DNA from: Hymenobacter chitinivorans DSM 11115 | GTDB taxonomy: Bacteria > Bacteroidota > Bacteroidia > Cytophagales > Hymenobacteraceae | Direction of reading: 5' to 3' | Length of the DNA: 64,000 bases | Assembly (NCBI RefSeq): GCF_002797555.1 | Contig: NZ_PGFA01000004.1 | Location: 248,001 to 312,000 of the forward strand | Shown: one piece after another, positions 6,997 through 37,394 of the stretch | How positions within the stretch are numbered: the first letter of the stretch is position 1 | How the letters are laid out: each line of letters starts with the position of its first letter | Made by a program: the position numbers and the translations under genes | Notes under the pieces: generated by a model | Database searches by the model: none | Told to the model about the DNA's origin: nothing | The model's input: only the letters and a program-made list of their open reading frames with translations

Positions 6997-8661
<1,665 letters not shown>

Positions 8662-9903: not shown

Positions 9904-10313
9904 ACGGCCAAGTCACAAGAACCATTAAAGCTTTTGGATGGCGCATCGAAGGAGCCACGCGCCGAAATGGGCGGAACCAAGACGTCCTGGTCGTTCTGGG
10001 TGATGCGCAGGGTGAAGTCGTAGGGCTCCTCTGAATTATCACTGAAGCCGAAAAAGGTAATGGACCAGCCCAGCTTCCAGCCTGCCATTTCCTTGATGGC
10101 GTTGACTTTGGGCTCGTGAGGCGGAAAGATGGTGGGGTCAAGCACTACTTTCCGCAGGCTCTGCTGGTTGTCGCCCTGGTTGATTTCAACCCATCTGCCA
10201 CTGCCCGGCGCCTGTACCAGGAAGTGAAACTTGCAGTAAGAAATACCGCCCATGGAGAGCTCCACAACGGGCATTGGGCCAGCCGGGTCGAAGGTTGCAG
10301 TCATAGAAGCCAT
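9900..10313 (-). CDS. Hypothetical protein, beta-rich (137 aa)
   Basis: No family is recognised. ATG 10313 is chosen since the upstream part of the frame lies inside the end region of the previous gene; ATG 10304 is also possible. There is no signal peptide or membrane segment. The sequence is rich in beta-type residues (VVELSMGGISYCKFHFLVQ; WKLGWSITFFGFSDNS), suggesting a small soluble beta-sandwich. It follows the membrane protein gene and overlaps the next gene by 4 bp, so it belongs to the same operon. Confidence 0.6.
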   Translation of the reverse strand: MASMTATFDPAGPMPVVELSMGGISYCKFHFLVQAPGSGRWVEINQGDNQQSLRKVVLDPTIFPPHEPKVNAIKEMAGWKLGWSITFFGFSDNSEEPYDFTLRITQNDQDVLVPPISARGSFDAPSKSFNGSCDLAV

Positions 10314-10384
10314 AGCTGTTGAAGGATGAAAAAGTGAGAAAATAGAACCACGGTATTGGGTGCGGTGGGCCAGCGGCGGCACCG

Positions 10385-16611: not shown

Positions 16612-17232
16612 ATGAAAACCGCCCGAACCAGTGTATTCATCAGTTACAGCCACGCCGATAGTCATTGGCGGGAGATGCTGACCATTCATTTACACCCCCT
16701 AGTGCGCGACCAGCACGTGCAGATCTGGAGCGACTGGGACATGCACAAGGGTGAACGGTGGCAGGACCGGATTCGGCGGCAGCTGGCCCAGGCCAAGGTG
16801 GCCATCTTCCTGGTCAGCGCCGATTTTCTGGCTTCCGATTTTATCCATGCCGAAGAGCTGCCGCCCTTGCTGGTGGCCGCCGAGCAGGAGGGAGCTATTC
16901 TGCTGTCTATCATCGTGCGGCCCTGCGCCTTTCGGGATTCGCCCCTGAGTCGGCTGCAGGCCATGAACAGCCCTAGTCAGCCCCTGTCGGGAATGAGCAA
17001 AACCCAGCGCGAGCGGGTCATGCTCAGCGTCTACGAAGAACTGCGGAGCGTATTCAGGCCCCAGCCCGGCTTGGCGGAGCCCCCGGCAGCTCCCTTGGGC
17101 GCAGCTAGCAAAAAAACGGGCCGGCTAGCTGCGGCCAAGCCAACTGCCAACCCGCCGGCCGGGCCGGCTGCCTCACCTGCGGCCAAAAAAACGCCGGCCC
17201 GCCCCAAAAACAAGCCTGGGCACGTGGGCTGA
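16612..17232 (+). CDS. TIR domain protein with basic Ala/Pro/Lys tail
   Basis: Bacterial TIR domains often cleave NAD+ or make cyclic ADP-ribose signals, commonly in antiphage defence or as secreted effectors. The TIR fold covers residues about 5-145: box 1 VFISYSH, the loop IWSDWDMHKGERW, and SADFLASDFIHAEELPPL, in which Glu81/Glu82 are candidates for the catalytic Glu. The last 55 residues are low-complexity and basic (AKPTANPPAGPAAS, then KKTPARPKNKPG), like a nucleic-acid or surface-binding tail. ATG 16612 is used; an upstream in-frame ATG at 16567 falls in the regulatory repeat. No second defence domain is fused. It is divergent from the LysM/patatin operon. Confidence 0.87.
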   Translation: MKTARTSVFISYSHADSHWREMLTIHLHPLVRDQHVQIWSDWDMHKGERWQDRIRRQLAQAKVAIFLVSADFLASDFIHAEELPPLLVAAEQEGAILLSIIVRPCAFRDSPLSRLQAMNSPSQPLSGMSKTQRERVMLSVYEELRSVFRPQPGLAEPPAAPLGAASKKTGRLAAAKPTANPPAGPAASPAAKKTPARPKNKPGHVG

Positions 17233-22302: not shown

Positions 22303-22539
22303 GGCAAAAAGACGTTTGGGGTTGAACGGATGGAAGAGTTAGCGCTCCAAAGCTCGATCTGGTGCTAACGGGAGTAGTGCTAAGGTGTCCGGCGCGGGAT
22401 TTGATTGCCAACAAATTTAGTAAGACTCGGGCCCCGGCAGCAGGGCTAATTCCGACTTATTGCGGGTGCATTGCGACAGGTAAATATTCGGCGGCCCGCC
22501 CGGGCCCCGCCGCCTCGCGGCTGGCCCAAGACTGCAGAA

Positions 22540-22601
22540 GCCGGCCCCACCCCAACCAGTTCGCCGAATCCTTTCCGGGGGCCGGTTGGGGTGGGGCCGG
22601 C
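22540..22601. terminator. Hairpin terminator after the antiporter gene
   Basis: An 18-bp perfect inverted repeat (22540-22557 with 22584-22601, arms rich in C and G), separated by 26 bases, lies 36 bp past the antiporter stop. There is no T run, so it may act as an mRNA 3' stabiliser or be factor-dependent. The rest of 22303-22539 holds only the DoxX leader. Confidence 0.6.
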
Positions 22602-22636
22602 TATATCCAGGGCCAAGCCGCCACCTGCGGGGGCCG

Positions 22637-24259
22637 CTAGTGCGGCATGTGGCTGATTTTGGCTTCGTCGAGGTCGAGCTGGGCTTCTTGGTGGCGCAGC
22701 ATTTCTTCCTCAAACACGTCTTCCTGGCGCAGCACAAACAGCTCCTCCCGCTGCACCTGCAGCACGTCGAGCAGTACCTGGTGGTAACGCTGCAGAGCCC
22801 GGCGCTTCGACTCGTCGTAGTCCAGGGCTTCGAGCAGGTTGCCGGTGCGCTGGGCCTCGGCCTGCATGCGGTGCTGCAGGGCGCTGATCATCTCATTGTC
22901 CCGGATGTCGGCTTCATAATTACGGGCCAAATGGGCCAGGGCCACGTGGCGCAGCCGCAGGCGGATGCCCGCCTCCTGCTCGTCGGTGGGCATGCGCTCC
23001 TCGGTATCGGCCACCCGGGTCAGGCGGATGATGGCCGGCAAGGTCAGGCCCTGAAACACGAGCGTGACCAGAATCACGACGAAGGTGATGAACAGAATCA
23101 GGTTGCGCTGCGGAAAAGCCTGCCCGTTGCTCAGCAGCAGCGGCACCGACAAAGCCGAAGCCAACGATACCACCCCGCGCATGCCGGCCCAGCCGATGAT
23201 AACCGGCCCCTGCCAGCCCGGGCTGACTTCCTGGGTGCGGATACTGCGAAACAGCCAGCGCGGCACAAAGGCCGCCGGAAACATCCACAGCAGCCGGATA
23301 ACGATGACCATGGCGCTGATGATAAGCCCGTAGGTAATGGCCTGGCGCAGGGAATAATTACCCAAGCCCTGCACGGCCACCGGCAGCTCCAGCCCAATGA
23401 GGATAAAGACCAGGCCGTTGAGGGCAAAGCCCACGCTGCTCCACACGCTGGCCGTTTGCAGGCGGGTGTTGGCGTCGAAAACCCGATGAGAGTGGTAGGA
23501 CAGCATCAGGCCCCCGCTAACTACGGCCAGCACGCCCGAGAAGTGGAATTCCTCGGCCAGCAGGTACATCACGTAGGGCGCAATAAAGGTGAGCACCGTG
23601 TTGATGCTGGGCGTGGTAGGCAGATACTTATGAATCAGGTAGAAGCCGTAGCCCACGGCCAGCCCGATGACCAGCCCCAAGCCGCTGGCCAGCACAAAGC
23701 TGGTGGCCGCCTCGTGCCAGGAAAAGGCGCCCGATACCACCGCCGCCAGCGCAAACCGGAACACAATCAGGCTGCTCGCATCGTTGATCAGGCTTTCGCC
23801 CTCCAAAATACCGGTTACCCGGCGCGGCACCTTCACGCCCTTAAGCACCGAAGTGGCGGCCACCGCATCGGGCGGGGAGATGATGCCGCCCAGCAGAAAC
23901 CCCAGGGCTAGGGTGAAGCCCGGGATGATGCTGGTCGAGACGTAGGCCACGATGGTGGAAGTGAAAAATACCAGCCCGAACGCCAGCAGGGCAATGGGCC
24001 GCTTCCAGCGCCAGAAGTCCTTCCAGGAGGTGTCCCAGGCGGCCTGATAGAGCAGGGGCGGCAGGAAAATCAGGAAAATCAGGTCGGGGTCGATGACGAT
24101 CAGCGGCAAGCCCGGCACGAAGCTCAGCGCCAGCCCGGCCAGCACCAGAAAGATGGGGTAGGAGATGCGCAGTTTCTGGCCCAGCATCACGAGCAGCAGC
24201 ATGGCAAACAGCAGACCCAGAACCAGCAGTATCGTTTCGTGTAGGGCGTTATCGTGCAT
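22637..24259 (-). CDS. Na+/H+ antiporter, CPA1 (NhaP) family
   Basis: This protein exchanges Na+ (or K+) for H+ across the inner membrane. From ATG 24259 it has 540 residues: about twelve membrane helices in residues 1-400, and a cytosolic helical tail of about 140 residues (DEQEAGIRLRLRHVALAHL onward). The CPA1 core is visible in PPDAVAATSVLKGV, then EGESLINDASSLIVF, with the ND pair of the ion site, and in WAGMRGVVSLASAL. An in-frame ATG 33 bp upstream is less likely, since the signature helix starts just after MHDNALHE. It is monocistronic, with a hairpin after it. Confidence 0.93.
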   Translation of the reverse strand: MHDNALHETILLVLGLLFAMLLLVMLGQKLRISYPIFLVLAGLALSFVPGLPLIVIDPDLIFLIFLPPLLYQAAWDTSWKDFWRWKRPIALLAFGLVFFTSTIVAYVSTSIIPGFTLALGFLLGGIISPPDAVAATSVLKGVKVPRRVTGILEGESLINDASSLIVFRFALAAVVSGAFSWHEAATSFVLASGLGLVIGLAVGYGFYLIHKYLPTTPSINTVLTFIAPYVMYLLAEEFHFSGVLAVVSGGLMLSYHSHRVFDANTRLQTASVWSSVGFALNGLVFILIGLELPVAVQGLGNYSLRQAITYGLIISAMVIVIRLLWMFPAAFVPRWLFRSIRTQEVSPGWQGPVIIGWAGMRGVVSLASALSVPLLLSNGQAFPQRNLILFITFVVILVTLVFQGLTLPAIIRLTRVADTEERMPTDEQEAGIRLRLRHVALAHLARNYEADIRDNEMISALQHRMQAEAQRTGNLLEALDYDESKRRALQRYHQVLLDVLQVQREELFVLRQEDVFEEEMLRHQEAQLDLDEAKISHMPH

Positions 24260-24374
24260 CAGGAAAGCAGCTAAGGGCCGGGGCTTCCCCAACCTGGACC
24301 GGAAGGTAGCCGCTGCCGGCTAAAAACGCTACTGGCGGCGCTGCTGGGCGCCAGGGCAGGGGCCGGTGTAAGCG

Positions 24375-26114: not shown

Positions 26115-26175
26115 AGCCGTAGGCAGGGTAAGACGTGCCGCCAGAACGATGCCTGCGGCTATCTTGCCCCGACCT

Positions 26176-27132
26176 ATGACCGACCTGCCCCACTACCTCA
26201 CCCGTTTCCGCAAGCTCAAGACCAGTAAGCTGGCCGGCGAAGAAGCGCCCTACAAGCCTGCCTTACTGCTGGCCGTGCTCGAAGGCCTCGAAGATGGCAG
26301 CGTCCAGGCCAATCAAATAGTCATTACGCCCGAGCTGCTGGCTGCCTTCCAAAGCAACTGCCGCGACCTAAGCACCTCGGGCCGGTTTCGGGCCAACAAC
26401 TTCGCGTTGCCCTTCTACCACCTCACCGGCGACGGGTTCTGGCACCTGCGCACTCACTTTGGCCAGCCCCTGGTTCTGACCTCCTCCGGCTCGCCCCGCA
26501 GCCTGGGCCACTTGCGCCAGGTGGTAGCCTACGCCAGCTTCGACGAGCCCCTGTGGCTGCTGCTCCAGGACAGGGCCACCCGCCACGTGTTCCGCGACGC
26601 CCTGCTCGACCGGTACTTCCCCCAGACCCGCCTCCGCTACCGTCCCACGGCCGGCCCCGAGGCCCTGCGCGTGCTGGGCCAGCAAATGCTGCAGGAGCCG
26701 GCCGCCGTCTACCAAACCCATATTAACCTGGCCGACGAAGTAGAAACTGCCGTGCGCAGCGCCGTTTTCAAGCGCGAGGTGCTCAAGGCTTACAACTTCA
26801 CCTGCGCCATTTCCGGCCTGCAGCTCATCAGCACCAGCACCACTGCCCCGGCCCCGCTGCTCGATGCCTGCCACATCGTGCCCTGGGCCATCAGCCACGA
26901 CGACACCATCGGCAATGGCCTGGCCCTGACGCCCACCCTGCACCGCGCCTTCGACCGCCACCTCCTCCGCATCGACCAGGACTACCGGGTGCGGGTAGCT
27001 AGCTCCTTCCGGGAGCTGCGCGGTGCCGAGCATGGGCTGTTGCAGTTCGAAGGCCAGAAGCTGCGGCTGCCCGAGCGGCGGGAGTGGTGGCCGCGGAAGG
27101 AGGGGTTTGGGGTTGGGGCTGGCAGGTACTAG
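26176..27132 (+). CDS. HNH endonuclease with ScoMcrA-like DNA-binding N-terminus
   Basis: A 318-residue nuclease. The C-terminal HNH module has CAISGL at about 210, DACHIVPWA at about 231-239 and GNGLALTPTLHRAFDRHL at about 247-264, giving the His-Asn-His metal site. The N-terminal part (residues 5-95: HYLTRFRKLKTSKLAGEEAP, YKPALLLAVLE, then FALPFYHLTGDGFWHL) resembles the domain that precedes HNH in ScoMcrA-type enzymes, which recognise phosphorothioated DNA. A type IV (modification-dependent) restriction role is inferred. ATG 26176 is used; a GTG/ATG nine codons earlier adds only a Pro-rich leader. Two paralogous genes of unknown function follow. Confidence 0.8.
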   Translation: MTDLPHYLTRFRKLKTSKLAGEEAPYKPALLLAVLEGLEDGSVQANQIVITPELLAAFQSNCRDLSTSGRFRANNFALPFYHLTGDGFWHLRTHFGQPLVLTSSGSPRSLGHLRQVVAYASFDEPLWLLLQDRATRHVFRDALLDRYFPQTRLRYRPTAGPEALRVLGQQMLQEPAAVYQTHINLADEVETAVRSAVFKREVLKAYNFTCAISGLQLISTSTTAPAPLLDACHIVPWAISHDDTIGNGLALTPTLHRAFDRHLLRIDQDYRVRVASSFRELRGAEHGLLQFEGQKLRLPERREWWPRKEGFGVGAGRY

Positions 27133-27274
27133 TGAAGCCCTGATACTTTCCGGCAACTGTGGGGCCGTGGGGCTGATGCCTCCGGTAGCAGGCGGCCCCA
27201 CTTATTTTTCTTGCCCGCCGCCGATAAATCGGTCTGCTGGTGTAGCTTAGGTGCTCATCCCCAGAGCTAGCCCC

Positions 27275-28618
27275 ATGAGTGACCCGGCCCCCGTTTCGCG
27301 CAGTGCCCAGCGCCACCTCGACCTGATTCGCCACCACGAGGAAACATTGGCCCGGTACCAGGCCGACCCGGCCGTGGCCGAGTGGCTACGGCAGTTTCGG
27401 GGAGACGGGGCCCGATTTCTGGAGCGCTATGCCACCGAGCGGGCCAGCGCGCTGGTAGACGGCCGCTCGTTCTGGGATATCAACCAGCGCGAAGAAGCCG
27501 ACCTGGTGCAGGAGGCCACCGAGCGCCTGTGGGAGATTCAGCAGCGCAAGCTGTTTGAGCTGCAATGTCGCTGGCGGGCCGAGGAAGTACGCCTGCCGGC
27601 GGAGCTGGTCGTGCTGAGCCAGGACTTCGAGCGCTGGGGTGCCCGCATTGAGCAGTGCCCGCTGGTGCCGCCCATTGCGGCGGCCGAGGTAGAAAGCTAC
27701 CTGGCGTACCTGCTCAGCGACGCCTGCACCGATGCCGATGATGACTCCGGTCGTCCCCGCGAATGGCAGAACTACGAGCGGTTTCGGCGCTACCTGCTGC
27801 TAGAGGCCGAAGGGCAGGACCCCGAACAGGTGCGCCGCGAAGCCGGCCGGAACCCCGAACCGGGTTTGGGCGGCCTGATGGGCATGCTCGCCGATTTTTT
27901 CCTGGACTACCCGGCCTGGTATGCTCACTGTGATGCCGTGGCGGGCCCGCCCAACCTGGTGCTGTACCTGCCCGACCTCCGGGGCGAGAAAGAGGAATAC
28001 TACCGGCATTTGGGCCGCACGGGCAAAGCGCCCGACGTGTACGAGGAGCCCGACGGCGGCGACGAACCAGCGCCCGTTGACCCCCCACTCACTGCCCCGG
28101 ATGCCGACCCGCCCCTGCGCTACCTTAGTTACAACCAGTTCGATAGCCTTACGGATACCCTGATGCGGGAATTTGAGACGCCGGAGCTGCTGCGCTTCCA
28201 TGAAGCCCTGCTGCATGAGCCCACCATGGCACCGGTAGCGGCCCCCGGCACGGACGACGATGACGACGATGATTACGAGCAGGACGACGAGAACGAGGCC
28301 GCACTAGCTGAGCTAGGCGCCGAGGCCGGGCGGGTGCTGCTGGAAATTCCGGAGCGCCTGCCCATCGAAGCCCACCCCGACTGGCGCGTGGCCCTGCACC
28401 GTACCTGGCTCGGCTGGCGCAAGCAGCGGCTGGCCACGGCCCTGCAGGCGGCCTACGCCGACTACGCCGCCCGCGAGCAGGCCGGTCAGCCCCATCCTTC
28501 GCCCTATTCAAAATCGGACGACCTCAGCGACCTGGCCCGGAAGTCCTGGAAGCAGGTGCGCAAGCTCATCCTCAAGGGGCGGGAGCGGGCCGGCGAGCCC
28601 CGCGACTTCAACTTTTAG
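27275..28618 (+). CDS. Uncharacterised acidic protein, paralogue A
   Basis: No family is recognised. The 447-residue soluble protein is mostly helical. It shares its whole layout with the next gene: a helix ending RKLFELQCRWRAEEVRLP, a CPLVPPIAAAE box, LSDACTDADDD, then DYPAWYAHCDAV, a GEKEEYYRHLGR segment, and the closing GRERAGEPRDFNF. A run of Asp/Glu (DDDDDDDYEQDDENE, about residues 329-343) divides it. No Walker, nuclease or membrane motif is seen. It starts 143 bp after the HNH stop, with paralogue B 68 bp after its own end. A role as partner or immunity factor for the HNH enzyme is speculation. Confidence 0.6.
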   Translation: MSDPAPVSRSAQRHLDLIRHHEETLARYQADPAVAEWLRQFRGDGARFLERYATERASALVDGRSFWDINQREEADLVQEATERLWEIQQRKLFELQCRWRAEEVRLPAELVVLSQDFERWGARIEQCPLVPPIAAAEVESYLAYLLSDACTDADDDSGRPREWQNYERFRRYLLLEAEGQDPEQVRREAGRNPEPGLGGLMGMLADFFLDYPAWYAHCDAVAGPPNLVLYLPDLRGEKEEYYRHLGRTGKAPDVYEEPDGGDEPAPVDPPLTAPDADPPLRYLSYNQFDSLTDTLMREFETPELLRFHEALLHEPTMAPVAAPGTDDDDDDDYEQDDENEAALAELGAEAGRVLLEIPERLPIEAHPDWRVALHRTWLGWRKQRLATALQAAYADYAAREQAGQPHPSPYSKSDDLSDLARKSWKQVRKLILKGRERAGEPRDFNF

Positions 28619-28686
28619 CGGCTCACGGCGGGCGGCGTTGGCCGGCCGGCGTGGCACATTCATTCACTAGTTATCCTTCGTTTGTT

Positions 28687-29952
28687 ATGGATTATCATCA
28701 TGCCGCCCTGGCCCGCGAAGCGGAGCTGGAGCAAGTACGTCTTGCCACTGAGCACGCCCTGCGTACCGACCCCCGCTACCAGCCCTACTTTGCTGGCTAC
28801 ACACCCGCCAGCATCGAAGCCTTTATTCAGCACTACGCCCGCCACAAGGTGAGCTGCCTGGAACAGGGCCCCGGCATGGTGAAGTTCCGGCTGCACCAGG
28901 TCATCGAGTACCAGGAGGAAGCCTACGAGCGGCTTTTCGACGTGCAGCGCAAGAAGCTGTTCGACTTGCAGGTGCGTTGGCGGGCCGGTGAAATCACTCT
29001 ACCCGGGGTGCAGACCTACCAGCAGTTTGAGGCCTGGCAGCGCAACGGCATTCACCGGTGCCCGTTTCTGCCCCCCATCACGCGGGCCGAATACGAGCTC
29101 TACCGCGACTGGCTGGCCAGCGACGCCTGTCAGGAGTTTGCCAACCACCAGGACTACTACCGCAACGACTCGGAATGGCAGGACTACAACGCCATGCGCG
29201 CCGAGTGGGTGCGGGCCCAGGCGCCCCCAACCCCGCCTACCGAAGAGAATAAGCGGCAAGAATACATCGAATACCCCGCCTGGTTTGCCTACTACGATGC
29301 CCGCACCGGGACCCCGGCCGGCTACCCTTTCGCCACCCATTCCAACCGCCGGGGAGAGCTGCAGGACCACTATATGGACCTGGCCCGGGAAGAGAGATGG
29401 GCCCTCAACCCGCCCAAGCCCTACGTGCCCGACCCGCGCCCCGACGTGATGAACCTCCACAACGAGCCCGATGCCTTTGCCGATGCCCCCGACCGCTACC
29501 TGACCGAGGACGACTGGCACTTCGCCGAGTTTACCCGCCGCTTCGACCCGGACCCGGAAACCCTGCTGGCCTACCGCCGGGCCATGCTGTGCGTGTACAA
29601 CGGCAACTACAACAACGTGCTCAGCCACACCAGCCAAAACCTGGAGCTGCTGGCCGATGCCCGCGGCCCCTGGCCCGTGCCCACCCACGCCGACTGGCGG
29701 CAGGGCATCTATGCCGCCGCCGCCCGACTGCACCGCGAGCTGCTGCTGGCCGCCCTACCCGCCGTGTTCGAGGACTATGAATTCCGCCTTCAGGCCGGCC
29801 TGCAACCCGCTCCACCCGACGAGTACCGCGCCTACCACGACGACAAGCCCGCTGAAGACCCCGCCAAGGAGTGCCGCATTATGCCTTACCTCAAAGAAGG
29901 TATTCTGCGCGGCCGTGAGCTGGCCGGTGAGCCCCGCAACTTCAATTATTGA
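28687..29952 (+). CDS. Uncharacterised acidic protein, paralogue B
   Basis: A 421-residue relative of the preceding gene. It carries RKKLFDLQVRWRAGEITLP, CPFLPPITRAEYELY, LASDACQEF, EYPAWFAYYDA, RRGELQDHYMDLAREER and the C-terminal GRELAGEPRNFNY. ATG 28687 is preferred to the GTG at 28651. It is rich in aromatic residues and lacks the Asp run of paralogue A. The conserved segments, especially the CP-x-x-PPI box and the GExRxFN(F/Y) end, are candidate functional sites. The pair is flanked on the right by a broken copy of the HNH 3' end. Confidence 0.6.
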   Translation: MDYHHAALAREAELEQVRLATEHALRTDPRYQPYFAGYTPASIEAFIQHYARHKVSCLEQGPGMVKFRLHQVIEYQEEAYERLFDVQRKKLFDLQVRWRAGEITLPGVQTYQQFEAWQRNGIHRCPFLPPITRAEYELYRDWLASDACQEFANHQDYYRNDSEWQDYNAMRAEWVRAQAPPTPPTEENKRQEYIEYPAWFAYYDARTGTPAGYPFATHSNRRGELQDHYMDLAREERWALNPPKPYVPDPRPDVMNLHNEPDAFADAPDRYLTEDDWHFAEFTRRFDPDPETLLAYRRAMLCVYNGNYNNVLSHTSQNLELLADARGPWPVPTHADWRQGIYAAAARLHRELLLAALPAVFEDYEFRLQAGLQPAPPDEYRAYHDDKPAEDPAKECRIMPYLKEGILRGRELAGEPRNFNY

Positions 29953-30434
29953 GGCGTAGCGTCCGGCCCAGCGGTGAGCCTGGGTGGGCCTAACCGGCGA
30001 AGTGTATAGGTTTATGCGAGTCGCACCTTCACGCGCGTAGTGCTGGCGGGCCTGCACCTACCCCATTGTGCCCTGGTTTCCCTCCTCCGATTCCTCAGCA
30101 ACCCGCAGTGCCGCGTACGGGTAGCCAGTTCGTTCCGGGAGTTACGCGGTGACGAACACGTGCTCTTGCAGTTCGAAGGCCAGCAGCCGCGTCTGCCTGA
30201 GCGGTGGCAACGGCGGGAGGGGTTTGGGCGATAATAAGCCAATGCCGCACTGCTGTTATAGCTTGGGGAACAGTCGGATAGAAGCAATACGCATTAAATA
30301 CTATATTTAGCTAGGTGCTCAGCAGGGCACATCCCACGTAGCACCGCCGGTTGCGGAGGGCAGTAACCGGCTGCTCAGCGGCTATGCAGTTATACACCGG
30401 GAGTTACACCAGAAACTATTCCTCGTCCGGGCCT
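29953..30434. other. Gap with HNH remnant, otherwise no gene
   Basis: Apart from the decayed HNH tail at 30112-30234, the 482 bases contain no gene I can support. The A+T-rich part around 30280-30310 probably holds the promoter of the DUF3592 gene. Confidence 0.5.
30112..30234 (+). pseudogene. Broken copy of the HNH 3' end, copy 2
   Basis: RVRVASSFRELRGDEHVLLQ followed by FEGQQPRLPERWQRREGFGR matches the last 40 residues of the HNH protein at 26985-27110 in the same orientation. The DNA shows many silent differences, so the copy is not recent. No HNH catalytic residues remain; the sequence upstream of 30112 is unrelated. Confidence 0.7.
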
Positions 30435-31394
30435 ATGTTGCAGAACCTGTTTCGCTTGCTGGGCCGCGTATACCGCCTGCTCTGGACTTGCATCTTGGTG
30501 GCCCTGCTAAGTGTAGCAACCCTGTTGACCTGGCACTTCTACCAGCAGGAGCACCTTGCAGCCCAGCTAAACGCCGGGGGGCAGCCCGTGACGGTGCGCG
30601 TTGAGCGGGCCGATAGGGCACCGCGGGCCTTGTGGGATGGGCTGGGCAACTTCGTCTACGTCGGCTTCCGCTACCAGGGCCGCCCCTACGAAACCCGTTT
30701 CGTGAACGACACGCTGTGGCTGTCGGAAGGCGACCGGGTGACGCTGCTCTATCAGCCCCGGCTCGACGTGTTCGGGCAGGCCCCGGTCCAGCCGGTTGCC
30801 CGGCCCGACCGGGTGGTCTCGCGGTTGATTGGCTGGACGGCAGTGGCCGATTTTACCCGGGAAACCAAGGCACTGGCCCTCTTCATCCTGGTTAGCGTCG
30901 CCTTGTTTTTTGTGGGGAGCGGGCTGCTGGCCTCGCTCACCGGCCTGACGGTTATCCAAGCACTGGCCCGGGGCGTTCTGGTCATCTGCCTGGGCATGGG
31001 CGCCTTGTTCTTTACCTACAACACCGTGCAGTACTACCGGTACGCGGCCCAGCTCCAGCGCCACGGGCAGCCGATGGAAGTAACGGTGGTCGATACGGAC
31101 CGGGTTTCGCACGGCCGGCGCACCAGCTGGTACACCTACCAGGCCACCTTCCGGTTCAAAGGCCAGGAGCGGGTCGTGCCCATTGAGCGGGCCGACTTCG
31201 AGCGCCTCAACGCGCAGAACTCCCGCCTGGCCGTGCGCTACGACCCCACCCTGAACGACTTCATCTCCGCCGATTACGACCCGGGCCTGTCCGAGCTGGT
31301 ACCGCCCCTGTTTCTCGGGCTACTCCTGGTGCTGGCTATCAGACCAGTGCGGCCCCGCCCGGTCGTGCCGGCCGCAGGTGGGGGTGCTGGTTAG
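30435..31394 (+). CDS. DUF3592 membrane protein (two modules)
   Basis: A 319-residue membrane protein with two repeats of a DUF3592 module: one extracytoplasmic beta region after helix 1 (VTVRVERADRAPRALWDG to LYQPRLDVFG) and one after helix 3 (VTVVDTDRVSHGRRTSWYTY to YDPTLNDFIS). Membrane segments are at about residues 15-32, 160-180, 187-205 and the C-terminus (PPLFLGLLLVLAI). ATG 30435 is preferred over upstream in-frame starts, which lie in a region with no coding character. It lies between two HNH-tail remnants. Function unknown. Confidence 0.78.
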   Translation: MLQNLFRLLGRVYRLLWTCILVALLSVATLLTWHFYQQEHLAAQLNAGGQPVTVRVERADRAPRALWDGLGNFVYVGFRYQGRPYETRFVNDTLWLSEGDRVTLLYQPRLDVFGQAPVQPVARPDRVVSRLIGWTAVADFTRETKALALFILVSVALFFVGSGLLASLTGLTVIQALARGVLVICLGMGALFFTYNTVQYYRYAAQLQRHGQPMEVTVVDTDRVSHGRRTSWYTYQATFRFKGQERVVPIERADFERLNAQNSRLAVRYDPTLNDFISADYDPGLSELVPPLFLGLLLVLAIRPVRPRPVVPAAGGGAG

Positions 31395-31398
31395 CTGG

Positions 31399-31480
31399 CT
31401 TGAGTTCGAAGGCTAGCCGCTATGGCTACCCGAGCGGTCCAAGTGGTGATTTAGTAGGCAAGGATTTGGGGCCGGGTGGC
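31399..31480 (+). pseudogene. Broken copy of the HNH 3' end, copy 3
   Basis: GAGTTCGAAGGC followed by CTACCCGAGCGG aligns with the HNH gene at about 27043-27120 (CAGTTCGAAGGC, CTGCCCGAGCGG), and the similarity goes on through AAGTGGTG and AAGGATTTGGGG beyond it. In the HNH frame there is a TAG at 31414-31416, so it cannot code for the tail. Starts 5 bp after the DUF3592 stop. Confidence 0.55.
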
Positions 31481-31505
31481 GGGCATGTTGTTGGTCCCAA
31501 ACCGA

Positions 31506-31540
31506 ACAAGACCCCACGGCGGATGCCCGTGGGGTCTTGT
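31506..31540. terminator. Terminator hairpin
   Basis: ACAAGACCCCACGG (31506-31519) pairs exactly with 31527-31540 around a 7-base loop. It can serve the DUF3592 gene on the + strand and the convergent gene ending at 31600. Confidence 0.75.
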
Positions 31541-31599
31541 TACGGATAGATTGCCTCGCTGATTGCTTCGCCTACAACTTGGTGCGGCGCAACCAACTA

Positions 31600-31989
31600 C
31601 TACTGGTTGTTGGCGTCGTCAATCTTGCCGCCATCGTTGGCGGTGCTGGGCGTCTGGCCGCCATTGTTGTAGGCGGTGCGGTCCTTGGTGGTGTTCTGGG
31701 AGTGGTGGTTGGGCTTGCGCTGGTTGTCGTCGCCCCCGCCGGTGTTCCGGGATTCGGCGTTGGGCTCGTCGCCGCGGTGGCTGCTGCCGCGGGCGTCGCG
31801 CACCAGCTCGCCGCCGTCGTTGCCGTGGTTGCCGCCGTGGCGGCCGGTGGTATCATTGGGGCCGGCAGGCGTCCGGGTGGCGTCGCCCTGCTGCTGGGCG
31901 CCGGCGCCTTGGGTGTTTTCGGGGCGGGAAGTGTTGCTGCCGTCGTTGGCCACTTCGGCCTGGGTGCGGCGGTGCTCGTTCTGGTCCAT
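31600..31989 (-). CDS. Intrinsically disordered hydrophilic protein (129 aa)
   Basis: The protein is almost wholly made of Asn, Gly, Asp, Thr, Gln and Arg (MDQNEHRRTQAEVANDGSN; GGGDDNQRKPNHHSQNTTKD), with no hydrophobic core, signal or Cys. It therefore should be disordered, like hydrophilin or stress-protection proteins. The opposite strand has a longer open frame made of Val/Ala/Gly runs, which I read as its shadow. Function cannot be inferred. Confidence 0.5.
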   Translation of the reverse strand: MDQNEHRRTQAEVANDGSNTSRPENTQGAGAQQQGDATRTPAGPNDTTGRHGGNHGNDGGELVRDARGSSHRGDEPNAESRNTGGGDDNQRKPNHHSQNTTKDRTAYNNGGQTPSTANDGGKIDDANNQ

Positions 31990-34383: not shown

Positions 34384-34403
34384 CCGTACCACCACTGAAC
34401 TTT
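34384..34403 (-). promoter_or_regulatory. Conserved 20-bp motif, copy 3
   Basis: The minus strand reads AAAGTTCAGTGGTGGTACGG and ends 65 bp before the start codon at 34319. It begins at the stop codon of the LuxR-type gene. One base differs from copy 1. Confidence 0.62.
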
Positions 34404-35052
34404 AGGCTGCCACCCAGCCCTGGCGCATGGCGCACACCACCAGGCCCACCAGGGTGCGGGCCCCGGCCTTATGCAGCAGGGCTCGGCGGTGACTTTCCAC
34501 GGTGCGCACGCTCAGGCACAGCTCATTGGCAATGTCCTGGTTGCAGTAGTCGGCCACCACCAGGCGCAGCACTTCCAGCTCCCGCCGGCTAAAAGGCGTG
34601 GGGGGCGGCAGCAGGCGGGCCGCGGGCCGAACCGAAGCTGCCGGCAGAGGTCGGCTGAACGCGCGGCTGGGGGCTAAGAGGATGCGCGCGGCGGCCACTA
34701 CTACCTCCGGGGCCGCGTGCCGGGGCACCAGGGTCAGCTCCCGGGGGCGGGCCGGCAGGTGGCGCAGCTCAGGGGCCTGGCGCGGCCCGGTCAGTAGCAG
34801 CAGGTGCTGGTGGGCCCGGGCCTGGGCCAGTTGGGCCACCAACTGGGGCAGGGGTGGGTCGGGCAGCAGCCCATCCACCACGACCAGGCCGTAAGCGGCC
34901 TGCCGCAGCAGGGTCGGGGCCTGGCAGGCATCGGCCGTGAGCACAAATTCCAGAGTTGGCCAGGCTTGTTGCAACGTCAGCAGCAAGCCCTGCCGGTAGA
35001 GGGTAGGCGGACCCACAATCAAGATGGGCCCTGAGCCTGAGGAAGATGACAT
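34402..35052 (-). CDS. LuxR-type regulator with degenerate receiver domain, paralogue 1
   Basis: A DNA-binding regulator of 216 residues. The C-terminal HTH (about 150-210) shows the LuxR signature FSRRELEVLRLVVADY, then NQDIANELCLSVRTVESHRR. The N-terminal half has receiver shape (PILIVGPPTLYRQGLLLTLQ, LVVVDGLLPD), with a possible phospho-Asp in VVVD, but the usual acidic pair after the first strand is GPP, so normal phosphorylation is doubtful. ATG 35052 is used; the longer upstream frame is not receiver-like. The HTH is almost identical to that of the gene at 36750-37394. Confidence 0.82.
   Translation of the reverse strand: MSSSSGSGPILIVGPPTLYRQGLLLTLQQAWPTLEFVLTADACQAPTLLRQAAYGLVVVDGLLPDPPLPQLVAQLAQARAHQHLLLLTGPRQAPELRHLPARPRELTLVPRHAAPEVVVAAARILLAPSRAFSRPLPAASVRPAARLLPPPTPFSRRELEVLRLVVADYCNQDIANELCLSVRTVESHRRALLHKAGARTLVGLVVCAMRQGWVAA
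34438..34608 (-). repeat. Direct repeat: LuxR HTH segment, copy 1
   Basis: About 165 bp coding for the HTH is close to identical with 36798-36967, in the same direction and 2.36 kb apart. The receiver halves of the two genes are much less alike. Confidence 0.7.
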
Positions 35053-35312
35053 GACGAAGAGAATAGTTAGGGCATAGAAAGTAGGCGGATAGGGTAGCAA
35101 TAGGCAGAGGGGAGTAATCAGGGCGGGGCAGCTGCGCAAGCAACACCATAAAGTACACAAATAGGATGATATTATAAATAATAATCAGAATAATTATATA
35201 TTAAAGCTCCGGCGCCTTTTCGTGGGCGTGGCTCGGGAAATAAATGCCCCGCCAGGCAACGCCCCGGCCCGTGGCCTCATCTACCGGTTATCAGCACCAA
35301 ACCCTTTTCGCT
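35053..35312. other. Divergent A+T-rich control region
   Basis: The 35160-35210 part is almost pure A/T (ATTATAAATAATAATCAGAA) in a G+C-rich setting. It lies between the LuxR-type gene and the head-GIN gene, which are read away from each other, so it should carry both promoters and perhaps the regulator's own operator. No gene is seen. Confidence 0.55.
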
Positions 35313-36749: not shown

Positions 36750-37394
36750 TCAGAGGCTGACTTCCGTCGTTGTTACCCAGCCCTGCTTTACGGCCTGTAC
36801 CACTAGGCCCACCAGGGTGCGGGCTCCGGCTTTCTGCAGCAAAGCCCGGCGGTGGCTTTCCACGGTGCGTACGCTCAGACACAGCTCATTGGCAATGTCC
36901 TGGTTGCAGTAATCAGCCACCACCAGGCGCAGCACTTCCAGCTCCCGCCGGCTAAAGGGCGTAGGCGGACCCGCGGCCGCGGCGGGCAGGCTTGGTTTCA
37001 GGGCCCAGGCGCGGGGCGGAGTATGGGCCAGCAGCTGCTCGATGGCGCCGCTCACTTCGTGCGGGGCCGCGGCGTGGGGCAGGATAGTCCAGGGGCGGGG
37101 ATACAGCAGCGGGGGCAGGGCACTAGAGCCCGCCTGACTAAAGCACAGCACGTGCTGGGTGCTGCGCACGGCGTAGAGGCGCTCCAGGAGCACGAGCAGG
37201 GGCCGCGTAGTCAGGGCTTCGTCCAGTACCAACAGGGTATAGGACCGGTGCTGCAGAAAGTTCAGCAGCAGGTCGGTATCCGAAACCAGGCAGATGGTCA
37301 GGCCAGGGCAGGCTTCGCGCAGGAGAGCAAGCAGGCCTTGCCGGTGCAGAGTGGCAGGAGCCGCAACAAGGGCGGCCCCGAAGTTCGACGACAT
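36750..37394 (-). CDS. LuxR-type regulator with degenerate receiver domain, paralogue 2
   Basis: A 214-residue paralogue of the gene at 34402-35052, read in the same direction. The HTH (FSRRELEVLRLVVADY, NQDIANELCLSVRTVESHRR, LLQKAGARTLVGLVV) is nearly the same residue for residue. The receiver half differs: the acidic pair is replaced in ALVAAPATLHRQG, though an Asp remains in LLVLDEALTTRP. It may therefore bind the same operators but sense different input. It ends 49 bp after the convergent CarboxypepD_reg gene. Confidence 0.82.
   Translation of the reverse strand: MSSNFGAALVAAPATLHRQGLLALLREACPGLTICLVSDTDLLLNFLQHRSYTLLVLDEALTTRPLLVLLERLYAVRSTQHVLCFSQAGSSALPPLLYPRPWTILPHAAAPHEVSGAIEQLLAHTPPRAWALKPSLPAAAAGPPTPFSRRELEVLRLVVADYCNQDIANELCLSVRTVESHRRALLQKAGARTLVGLVVQAVKQGWVTTTEVSL
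36798..36967 (-). repeat. Direct repeat: LuxR HTH segment, copy 2
   Basis: This is the partner of the segment at 34438-34608. The two runs agree over long stretches (for example GGCAATGTCCTGGTTGCAGT), with most changes at third positions. Confidence 0.7.

Follow-up and report, generated by a model that had tools for sequence, protein, structure and literature searches.

The window analysed here is a 64,000-nucleotide stretch of the Hymenobacter chitinivorans DSM 11115 genome (assembly GCF_002797555.1, contig NZ_PGFA01000004.1, positions 248,001 to 312,000 of the forward strand), in which a gene for a predicted restriction enzyme with a sulfur-binding domain (SBD) and an HNH domain is followed, on the same strand, by two displaced copies of the HNH 3′ end. 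With a probability of about 0.6, these copies, termed tails, are the scars of serial insertions behind the SBD-HNH gene, each insertion being able to duplicate the 3′ part of that gene. According to this explanation, accessory genes would enter just behind the stop codon of the restriction gene, and entry may duplicate the 3′ part of the target; the front copy would remain intact, and the displaced copy would stay with the old downstream gene and decay. In the window, a pair of paralogues (P1 and P2) would have entered between the HNH gene and its former neighbor, a DUF3592-like gene. Tail copy 2 would then be the former HNH end, and copy 3, found after the DUF3592-like gene, might by analogy be an older scar of the same kind.

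Tail copies behind the SBD-HNH gene

The intact SBD-HNH gene lies at 26149-27132 (+ strand), and its 3′ end, at about 26955-27132, is tail copy 1. The encoded protein contains an HNH_2 domain over residues 219-275 (Pfam, E 2.9e-11) fused to a sulfur-binding-like N-terminal domain, which was matched over residues 13-163 by PDB 8h0l (SBDHga1, E 9e-19). The NCBIfam model for phosphorothioate restriction, NF045808, aligned with residues 18-317 (E 5e-30), and the score of 104.6 bits was below the curated cut-off of 180 bits. The window protein therefore resembles SBD-HNH phosphorothioate-type restriction enzymes as far as its domain matches indicate. According to the accessible part of the literature on the phosphorothioate-dependent endonucleases SprMcrA and EcoWI (PMC7461809), the combination of a sulfur-binding-like N-terminal domain with HNH is common to these enzymes and the window protein; the window protein differs in scoring under the curated cut-off, and its activity is a prediction. 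The 3′ third of the gene was 94% identical to that of the relative G154, the nearest among 11 relatives and one that shares P1-P2, and the segment 26664-26790 was nearest to G149 (86-93% in sliding windows, versus 62-78% to G051 and G154).

The initial annotation had reported that the HNH 3′ end recurs at 30112-30234, with an intact frame and many silent changes, and again at 31399-31480 with a stop in frame, all copies pointing in one direction. These observations were confirmed. The tail of copy 2 (30081-30234, + strand) was 76% identical to the intact gene (30081-30216 versus 26955-27090), with a local alignment score of 120 against a maximum of 33 among 1000 dinucleotide shuffles; its reading frame was kept, and the differences at codon positions 1, 2, and 3 numbered 2, 3, and 11 over 90 nt. 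Copy 3 (31400-31478, + strand) is decayed and contains an in-frame TAG. It was 70% identical to the HNH tail over 31403-31476 (score 43; maximum of shuffles 31), and it aligned with the HNH tail of G078 up to the stop codon of the latter (score 52). We then used an nhmmer DNA profile built from 14 tails of one HNH lineage, clade A (13 relatives and window copy 1). In the window, this profile found copies 1, 2, and 3 (the last at 31400-31452) with E-values of 4e-43, 6e-24, and 6e-8, respectively, and the next match reached only E 0.46. In the whole 5.87-Mb genome, the three best matches of the tail were these three copies, the third at E 0.0018 (40 of 77 first-pass candidates scored). A chance origin of copy 3 is ruled out by the shuffles, the genome-wide ranking, and the profile. 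A terminator-like hairpin was read by eye from the sequence at 31505-31541, 3′ of copy 3.

The initial annotation had described copy 2 as the last ~40 codons of the gene. The tail is real, but the relic also holds HNH pieces from 29989 on: the stretch 29989-30060 (+ strand) matched nucleotides 575-647 of the G154 HNH gene (score 52; 0 of 300 shuffles reached this score, maximum 32), and a gapped alignment placed further small HNH pieces between this stretch and the tail. Copy 2 is a multiply deleted HNH relic that starts 36 bp past the paralogue pair, and these upstream pieces rule out a clean tail with one sharp junction; because of them, a common start codon for all tails was also discarded. 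The same stretch matched the window's own HNH gene only at chance level (score 25, reached by 25 of 300 shuffles). Because the middle of copy 2 matches the G154 HNH gene and the window's own segment differs, copies 1 and 2 do not simply represent the same allele twice.

The genomes compared at this locus are different species of the genus. In G051, the gene order was a Na+/H+ exchanger-like gene (NHE), HNH, spacer, DUF3592-like gene, hydrolase, and TIR, with one HNH gene and no P1-P2, so that a related genome with a single target and without the insert was found. The window has P1-P2 between HNH and the DUF3592-like gene, and copy 2 is still joined to the latter by a spacer (30235-30434, + strand) like that between HNH and DUF3592 in G051. 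In a blastn search, copy 2 and this spacer together (30091-30314) aligned to the HNH end and spacer of G051 (10132-10359). Copy 2 is read as the former HNH end because G051 holds the empty arrangement HNH-DUF3592. The DUF3592-like gene (30435-31394, + strand), which directly follows HNH in G051 with 75% protein identity, would be the ancestral neighbor of HNH. The direct repeat around P1-P2 comprised 146 columns, 75% of them identical. The second informative relative, G154, has the order HNH-P1-P2-two other genes-DUF3592. Copy 1, spacer, and P1-P2 of the window matched G154 with 88% identity over 26150-29959 (spacer score 167, reached by 0 of 1000 shuffles); by gene, the identity was 88% for P1 and 91% for P2, next to the 94% of the HNH 3′ third, whereas it was 81% for DUF3592 and 87% for NHE.

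The putative cargo consists of P1 (27275-28618, + strand) and P2 (28651-29952, + strand), which is 29% identical to P1. The P1 family was present in 16 of 149 genomes, and the protein identity to window P1 was 87% in G154, 69% in G025, and 66% in G082, in each of which P2 adjoins P1. Pfam, PADLOC, NCBIfam, and fold searches gave no match that would indicate a function for P1 or P2. The AlphaFold2 model of P1 was helical (predicted local distance difference test score, pLDDT, 78) and had no fold match at E 0.001, and the best match of P1 among PDB sequences was at E 0.12. Runs of several tandem paralogues of this family stand directly behind an ettA-like gene in G022 (C1:429256-435992, L164) and G038 (C6:24774-31317, L163). 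The DUF3592 label of the downstream gene proved to be a sub-threshold Pfam match of the open reading frame from 30435 (E 2.9e-4, 21.9 bits, cut-off 25.3), and the longer open reading frame from 30351 had no Pfam match at E 0.1.

Tails, cargo, and targets in other Hymenobacter genomes

To follow the tails beyond the window, 120 Hymenobacter genomes were searched with models of the HNH tail, middle, and head. Tail matches were found in 58 of the 120 genomes, and exactly one HNH match was present in 37 of 50 HNH loci. Orphan tails that share the strand of an HNH gene or large HNH fragment and lie at most 5 kb downstream of it occurred in four genomes: that of the window, G066, G024, and G149. The cargo differed among them. 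G149 has the order HNH, Fic, tail, and a gene read as HsdR from its sequence; G066 has HNH, a Fic gene with an internal stop, and a tail; and G024 has an HNH fragment, a hydrolase, a decayed tail, Fic, and a tail. A tail in G082, close to the end of a contig, follows a DUF3037 gene, and no HNH was seen there. Orphan tails with neither intact cargo nor an intact HNH of the same kind were found in G047, G151, G076, G019, G025, and G070, some with HNH head or middle pieces. The gene content next to HNH thus differs between genomes (G051, G154, G149, G066, and G024 are different species), and therefore the site varies in what it holds and retains old tails, which bears out the variable accessory-gene site proposed in the initial annotation.

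Clade-specific DNA profiles assigned window copy 2 (80 versus 21 bits) and the G149 tail (88 versus 34) to clade A, and the tails of G066 (139 versus 62), G024 (128 versus 61), and G082 (96 versus 40) to clade B. In each case the clade of the orphan tail agreed with that of the adjacent HNH gene or, for G082, with the HNH of that genome. A tree of 54 tails, which carries no support values, agreed with this assignment and left the G070 tail unplaced; in it, the window and G149 orphans were nearest to the HNH of their own genome (75% and 86%). In four pairs of intact and orphan tails, the differences at codon positions 1, 2, and 3 were 19, 17, and 40 of 76 (binomial 4e-4), and 13, 11, and 28 without the G024 pair (0.002). 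This third-position excess hints that the copies may have diverged partly as coding sequence. It is kept only as a hint because the intact copy alone adds third-position changes and the G024 pair uses an already broken gene.

The Fic genes of G149, G066, and G024 belong to one family, SoFic (74-100% identity to the G024 query), yet different tails stand behind them. Among 18 full-length places with ~72% identity or more to this query, 17 loci were taken with 1.5-kb flanks (one shorter). HNH matches lay near four of the 17 (G149, G066, G024, and G007, which has a complete HNH gene behind Fic and no HNH tail), and in the other 13 no HNH match better than E 1 was found within 1.5 kb. Flanking direct repeats of 83-161 bp were present in five of the 17 loci. 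Their identity was 93% in G007, 90% in G149, 87% in G066, 83% in G024, and 76% in G172, compared with 75% in the window, and no close strain pair is among these genomes. In G007 and G172, SoFic lies between two copies of the 3′ end of a gene that we take to be an ettA-like ABC-F gene. The ettA-like 3′ end matched 118 of 120 genomes, once in 115, twice in three (G007, G172, and G155), and not at all in two; as seven first-pass candidates were scored per genome, decayed copies may be missed in these counts. In G155 (L261 2947-3500, C71), the two tail copies are separated by a ~500-bp insert other than SoFic. Since the same SoFic family goes with a duplicated ettA-like tail behind the ettA-like gene, the cassette does not include the tail: judged by sequence, the tails belong to the target gene and not to the cargo. 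PADLOC models label SoFic and ThsB-like TIR proteins. One or more palindrome-like TGTAAAG...CTTTACA elements, which may be an operator, stand upstream of SoFic in L092, L093, L145, L085, and L155.

As a control, we examined 789 genes in 80 loci and a 26-kb piece of the window for recurrence of the last 165 nt 30-6000 bp downstream at E 1e-6. The 3′ end recurred in 19 of the 789 genes, including the HNH genes of the window, G066, and G149 and the ettA-like genes of G007 and G172.

Proposed insertion scars and alternative explanations

Several results weigh against insertion scars as the explanation. The spacer match taken alone is weak (G051, score 29, reached by 1 of 1000 shuffles; G160, score 32, 0 of 1000). 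In G154, the space between P2 and DUF3592 holds two other reading frames and no recognisable tail, and neither G051 nor G154 has a tail match after DUF3592, so that no relative shows copy 3 forming. Among 14 P1-family loci tested, only that of the window had flanking repeats, and the idea that P1-P2 is a unit that always makes repeats found no support on this count (1 of 14). Likewise, 12 of the 17 SoFic loci lacked convincing repeats: G074 had only a 27-bp match (E 6e-4), and the other 11 had none. In the tail tree, the G066 and G024 orphans were slightly nearer to other clade-B genes than to their own HNH (89% versus 88% and 90% versus 82%). The rest of the 19 control genes were tandem paralogues (P1/P2 and a pair that we take to be LuxR-type), array-region repeats, and some unexplained cases.

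The main rival explanation is a tandem duplication of the whole HNH gene with cargo between the copies, for example by single-crossover integration, followed by erosion of the redundant copies from the 5′ side. We regard it as unlikely, albeit the most serious competitor. Window copy 2 reaches back to about HNH codon 192, as an ordinary HNH duplicate under erosion might also do, and this counts against insertion scars. Decayed tandem copies are present in G025, where an HNH 3′ part is followed at once by an HNH 5′ part (L095 10336-11106), and G020 has two HNH genes 11 kb apart, one of them frameshifted. Orphan HNH heads and middles also occur in the genus (G081, G038, G030, G159, G018, G048, G001, G059, G027, and G053); in G053 and G001 they lie ~6 kb and ~11 kb downstream of HNH, and in G027 ~1.6 kb upstream. 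On the other hand, the tail starts no more than ~16 bp from where the Fic reading frame ends in G149, G066, and G024, and the sequence before these tails showed no clear HNH relic, the score being reached by 65 (G149), 77 (G066), and 31 (G024) of 300 shuffles. The G149 control became borderline with the window HNH as query (1 of 300 shuffles), with a match inside the Fic coding sequence, a further point in favor of the rival. Cargo between two intact HNH copies was found in none of the loci examined, and the ettA-like cases had similar short repeats with no second ettA gene found.

Two explanations based on site-specific recombination were also considered. An integrase or other site-specific element could have used the HNH 3′ end as attB, the tails being attL/attR remnants of lost elements. 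Integrations at 3′ ends leave regenerated 3′ ends with displaced fragments, a pattern like the one observed, but the genes between the window tails (P1, P2, and the DUF3592-like gene) matched no integrase or transposase family in Pfam, the SoFic repeats are of unequal length (83 to 161 bp), and one or two genes make up each insert. We consider this origin improbable. If the tail were itself a mobile attachment site that travels with the cassettes, as attC does with integron genes, this would account for tails standing directly behind cargo genes in the same orientation. This idea is contradicted by the 13 tail-less SoFic loci away from HNH, by G007 with a full HNH gene and no HNH tail, and by the ettA-like repeats: the repeat behind the ettA-like gene is ettA-like sequence, and the other tails follow the local HNH clade. 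In integrons, the recombination site travels with the gene cassette, whereas here the repeat follows the target gene, and a cassette-borne site is scarcely credible.

For insertion scars, we infer a mechanism that combines homologous and illegitimate recombination. DNA from a related strain would be taken up and would pair by homology with the 3′ part of the target gene; the other side would be joined without homology, leaving the resident 3′ end behind the insert as a long target duplication. The different HNH alleles carried by copies 1 and 2 fit such one-sided homology without proving it, and the same holds for the swapping by homologous recombination that had been suggested for this site. 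Of the stepwise duplication of HNH units with replacement of the rest, also proposed in the initial annotation, the tails left behind stand, but it is not a general rule because SoFic has the same effect at the ettA-like gene; what is duplicated is the 3′ part of the gene, of whichever kind, that precedes the entering cargo.

The accessory region and the meaning of the proposed scars

The ettA-like gene, presumably of the ABC-F type, lies upstream in the same region of the window (6997-8661, + strand), and its 3′ end is the second recurrent target. Behind this gene, HNH is found in G175 and P1-family arrays in G038 and G022; by coordinates, HNH is also close behind it in G072, G055, and G018. 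A TIR-like gene of the window (16612-17232, + strand) is by eye a close relative of the G051 TIR gene that follows HNH-DUF3592-hydrolase, although its position differs. Downstream, the variable stretch is bounded by a gene at 31600-31989 (- strand) with relatives in G068, G051, and G154 (83-86% DNA identity). The ettA-like neighbors and the displaced TIR relative therefore make the region from the ettA-like gene to the gene at 31600 look like an accessory hotspot. Within it, the gene at 22637-24292 (- strand), which we take to be Na+/H+ exchanger-like, is a neighbor of clade-A HNH, and such a gene was present within 8 kb of HNH in all 13 clade-A relatives used for the tail profile. A strong inverted repeat lies near its end at 22539-22602 (30-nt arms, 83% complementary, 4 nt between). 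Farther downstream, the two paralogues that are presumably LuxR-type (34402-35160 and 36750-37394, both - strand) share a 194-nt stretch of 88% identity at their 3′ ends.

The repeats made by insertion with long target duplication are about 100 bp long; the direct repeat flanking the insert is of similar kind here, at the 146 columns of the window and the lengths given above for SoFic. Such insertion was described in Helicobacter pylori (Nobusato et al. 2000), where, as far as the accessible parts of PMC1643837 and PMC4978471 state, it is frequent with restriction-modification genes. Common to that system and ours is an insert flanked by a direct repeat of a sequence that is single in the insert-free genome, and the Hymenobacter case has the structural features of insertion with long target duplication. 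Compared with the same passages, the cargo here comprises SoFic, P1-P2, or a hydrolase, and a tail also comes after a DUF3037 gene; a restriction gene or an ettA-like gene provides the 3′ end that serves as target; the scars are stacked in series; and the window repeat is old (75-79%). In the type VI effector/immunity arrays of Vibrio cholerae, the available portion of PMC5361080 describes displaced effector 3′ ends with old downstream genes, akin to homology-facilitated illegitimate recombination. Alike in both cases, new modules enter upstream, and the old 3′ end and the downstream genes are shifted back. In contrast to those arrays as described there, a restriction gene serves as the anchor here, the cargo bears no relation to this anchor, and there is no toxin-immunity logic. 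No publication on this locus was found in the open-access literature searched.

SoFic was found behind three kinds of target, namely two HNH subfamilies and the ettA-like gene, with duplication each time; this points to the mode of entry, and not to any single locus, as the source of the rule. A bolder and doubtful extension is that single accessory genes, SoFic above all, would be integrase-free mobile units in Hymenobacter that preferentially enter right behind target stop codons and duplicate the last 80-160 bp, the target staying functional; the restriction gene would then be a preferred landing site, perhaps by way of a nick or break near its 3′ end.

These results address the general question of how a hotspot can gain single accessory or defense genes when no integrase or transposon takes part. 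In several species, and with different genes as targets, the scars reveal the target and the boundaries and, in part, which genes came first, which makes the process testable. For annotation, they mean that a short orphan 3′ end found after an accessory gene need not be the remains of a separate gene but can be an insertion scar.

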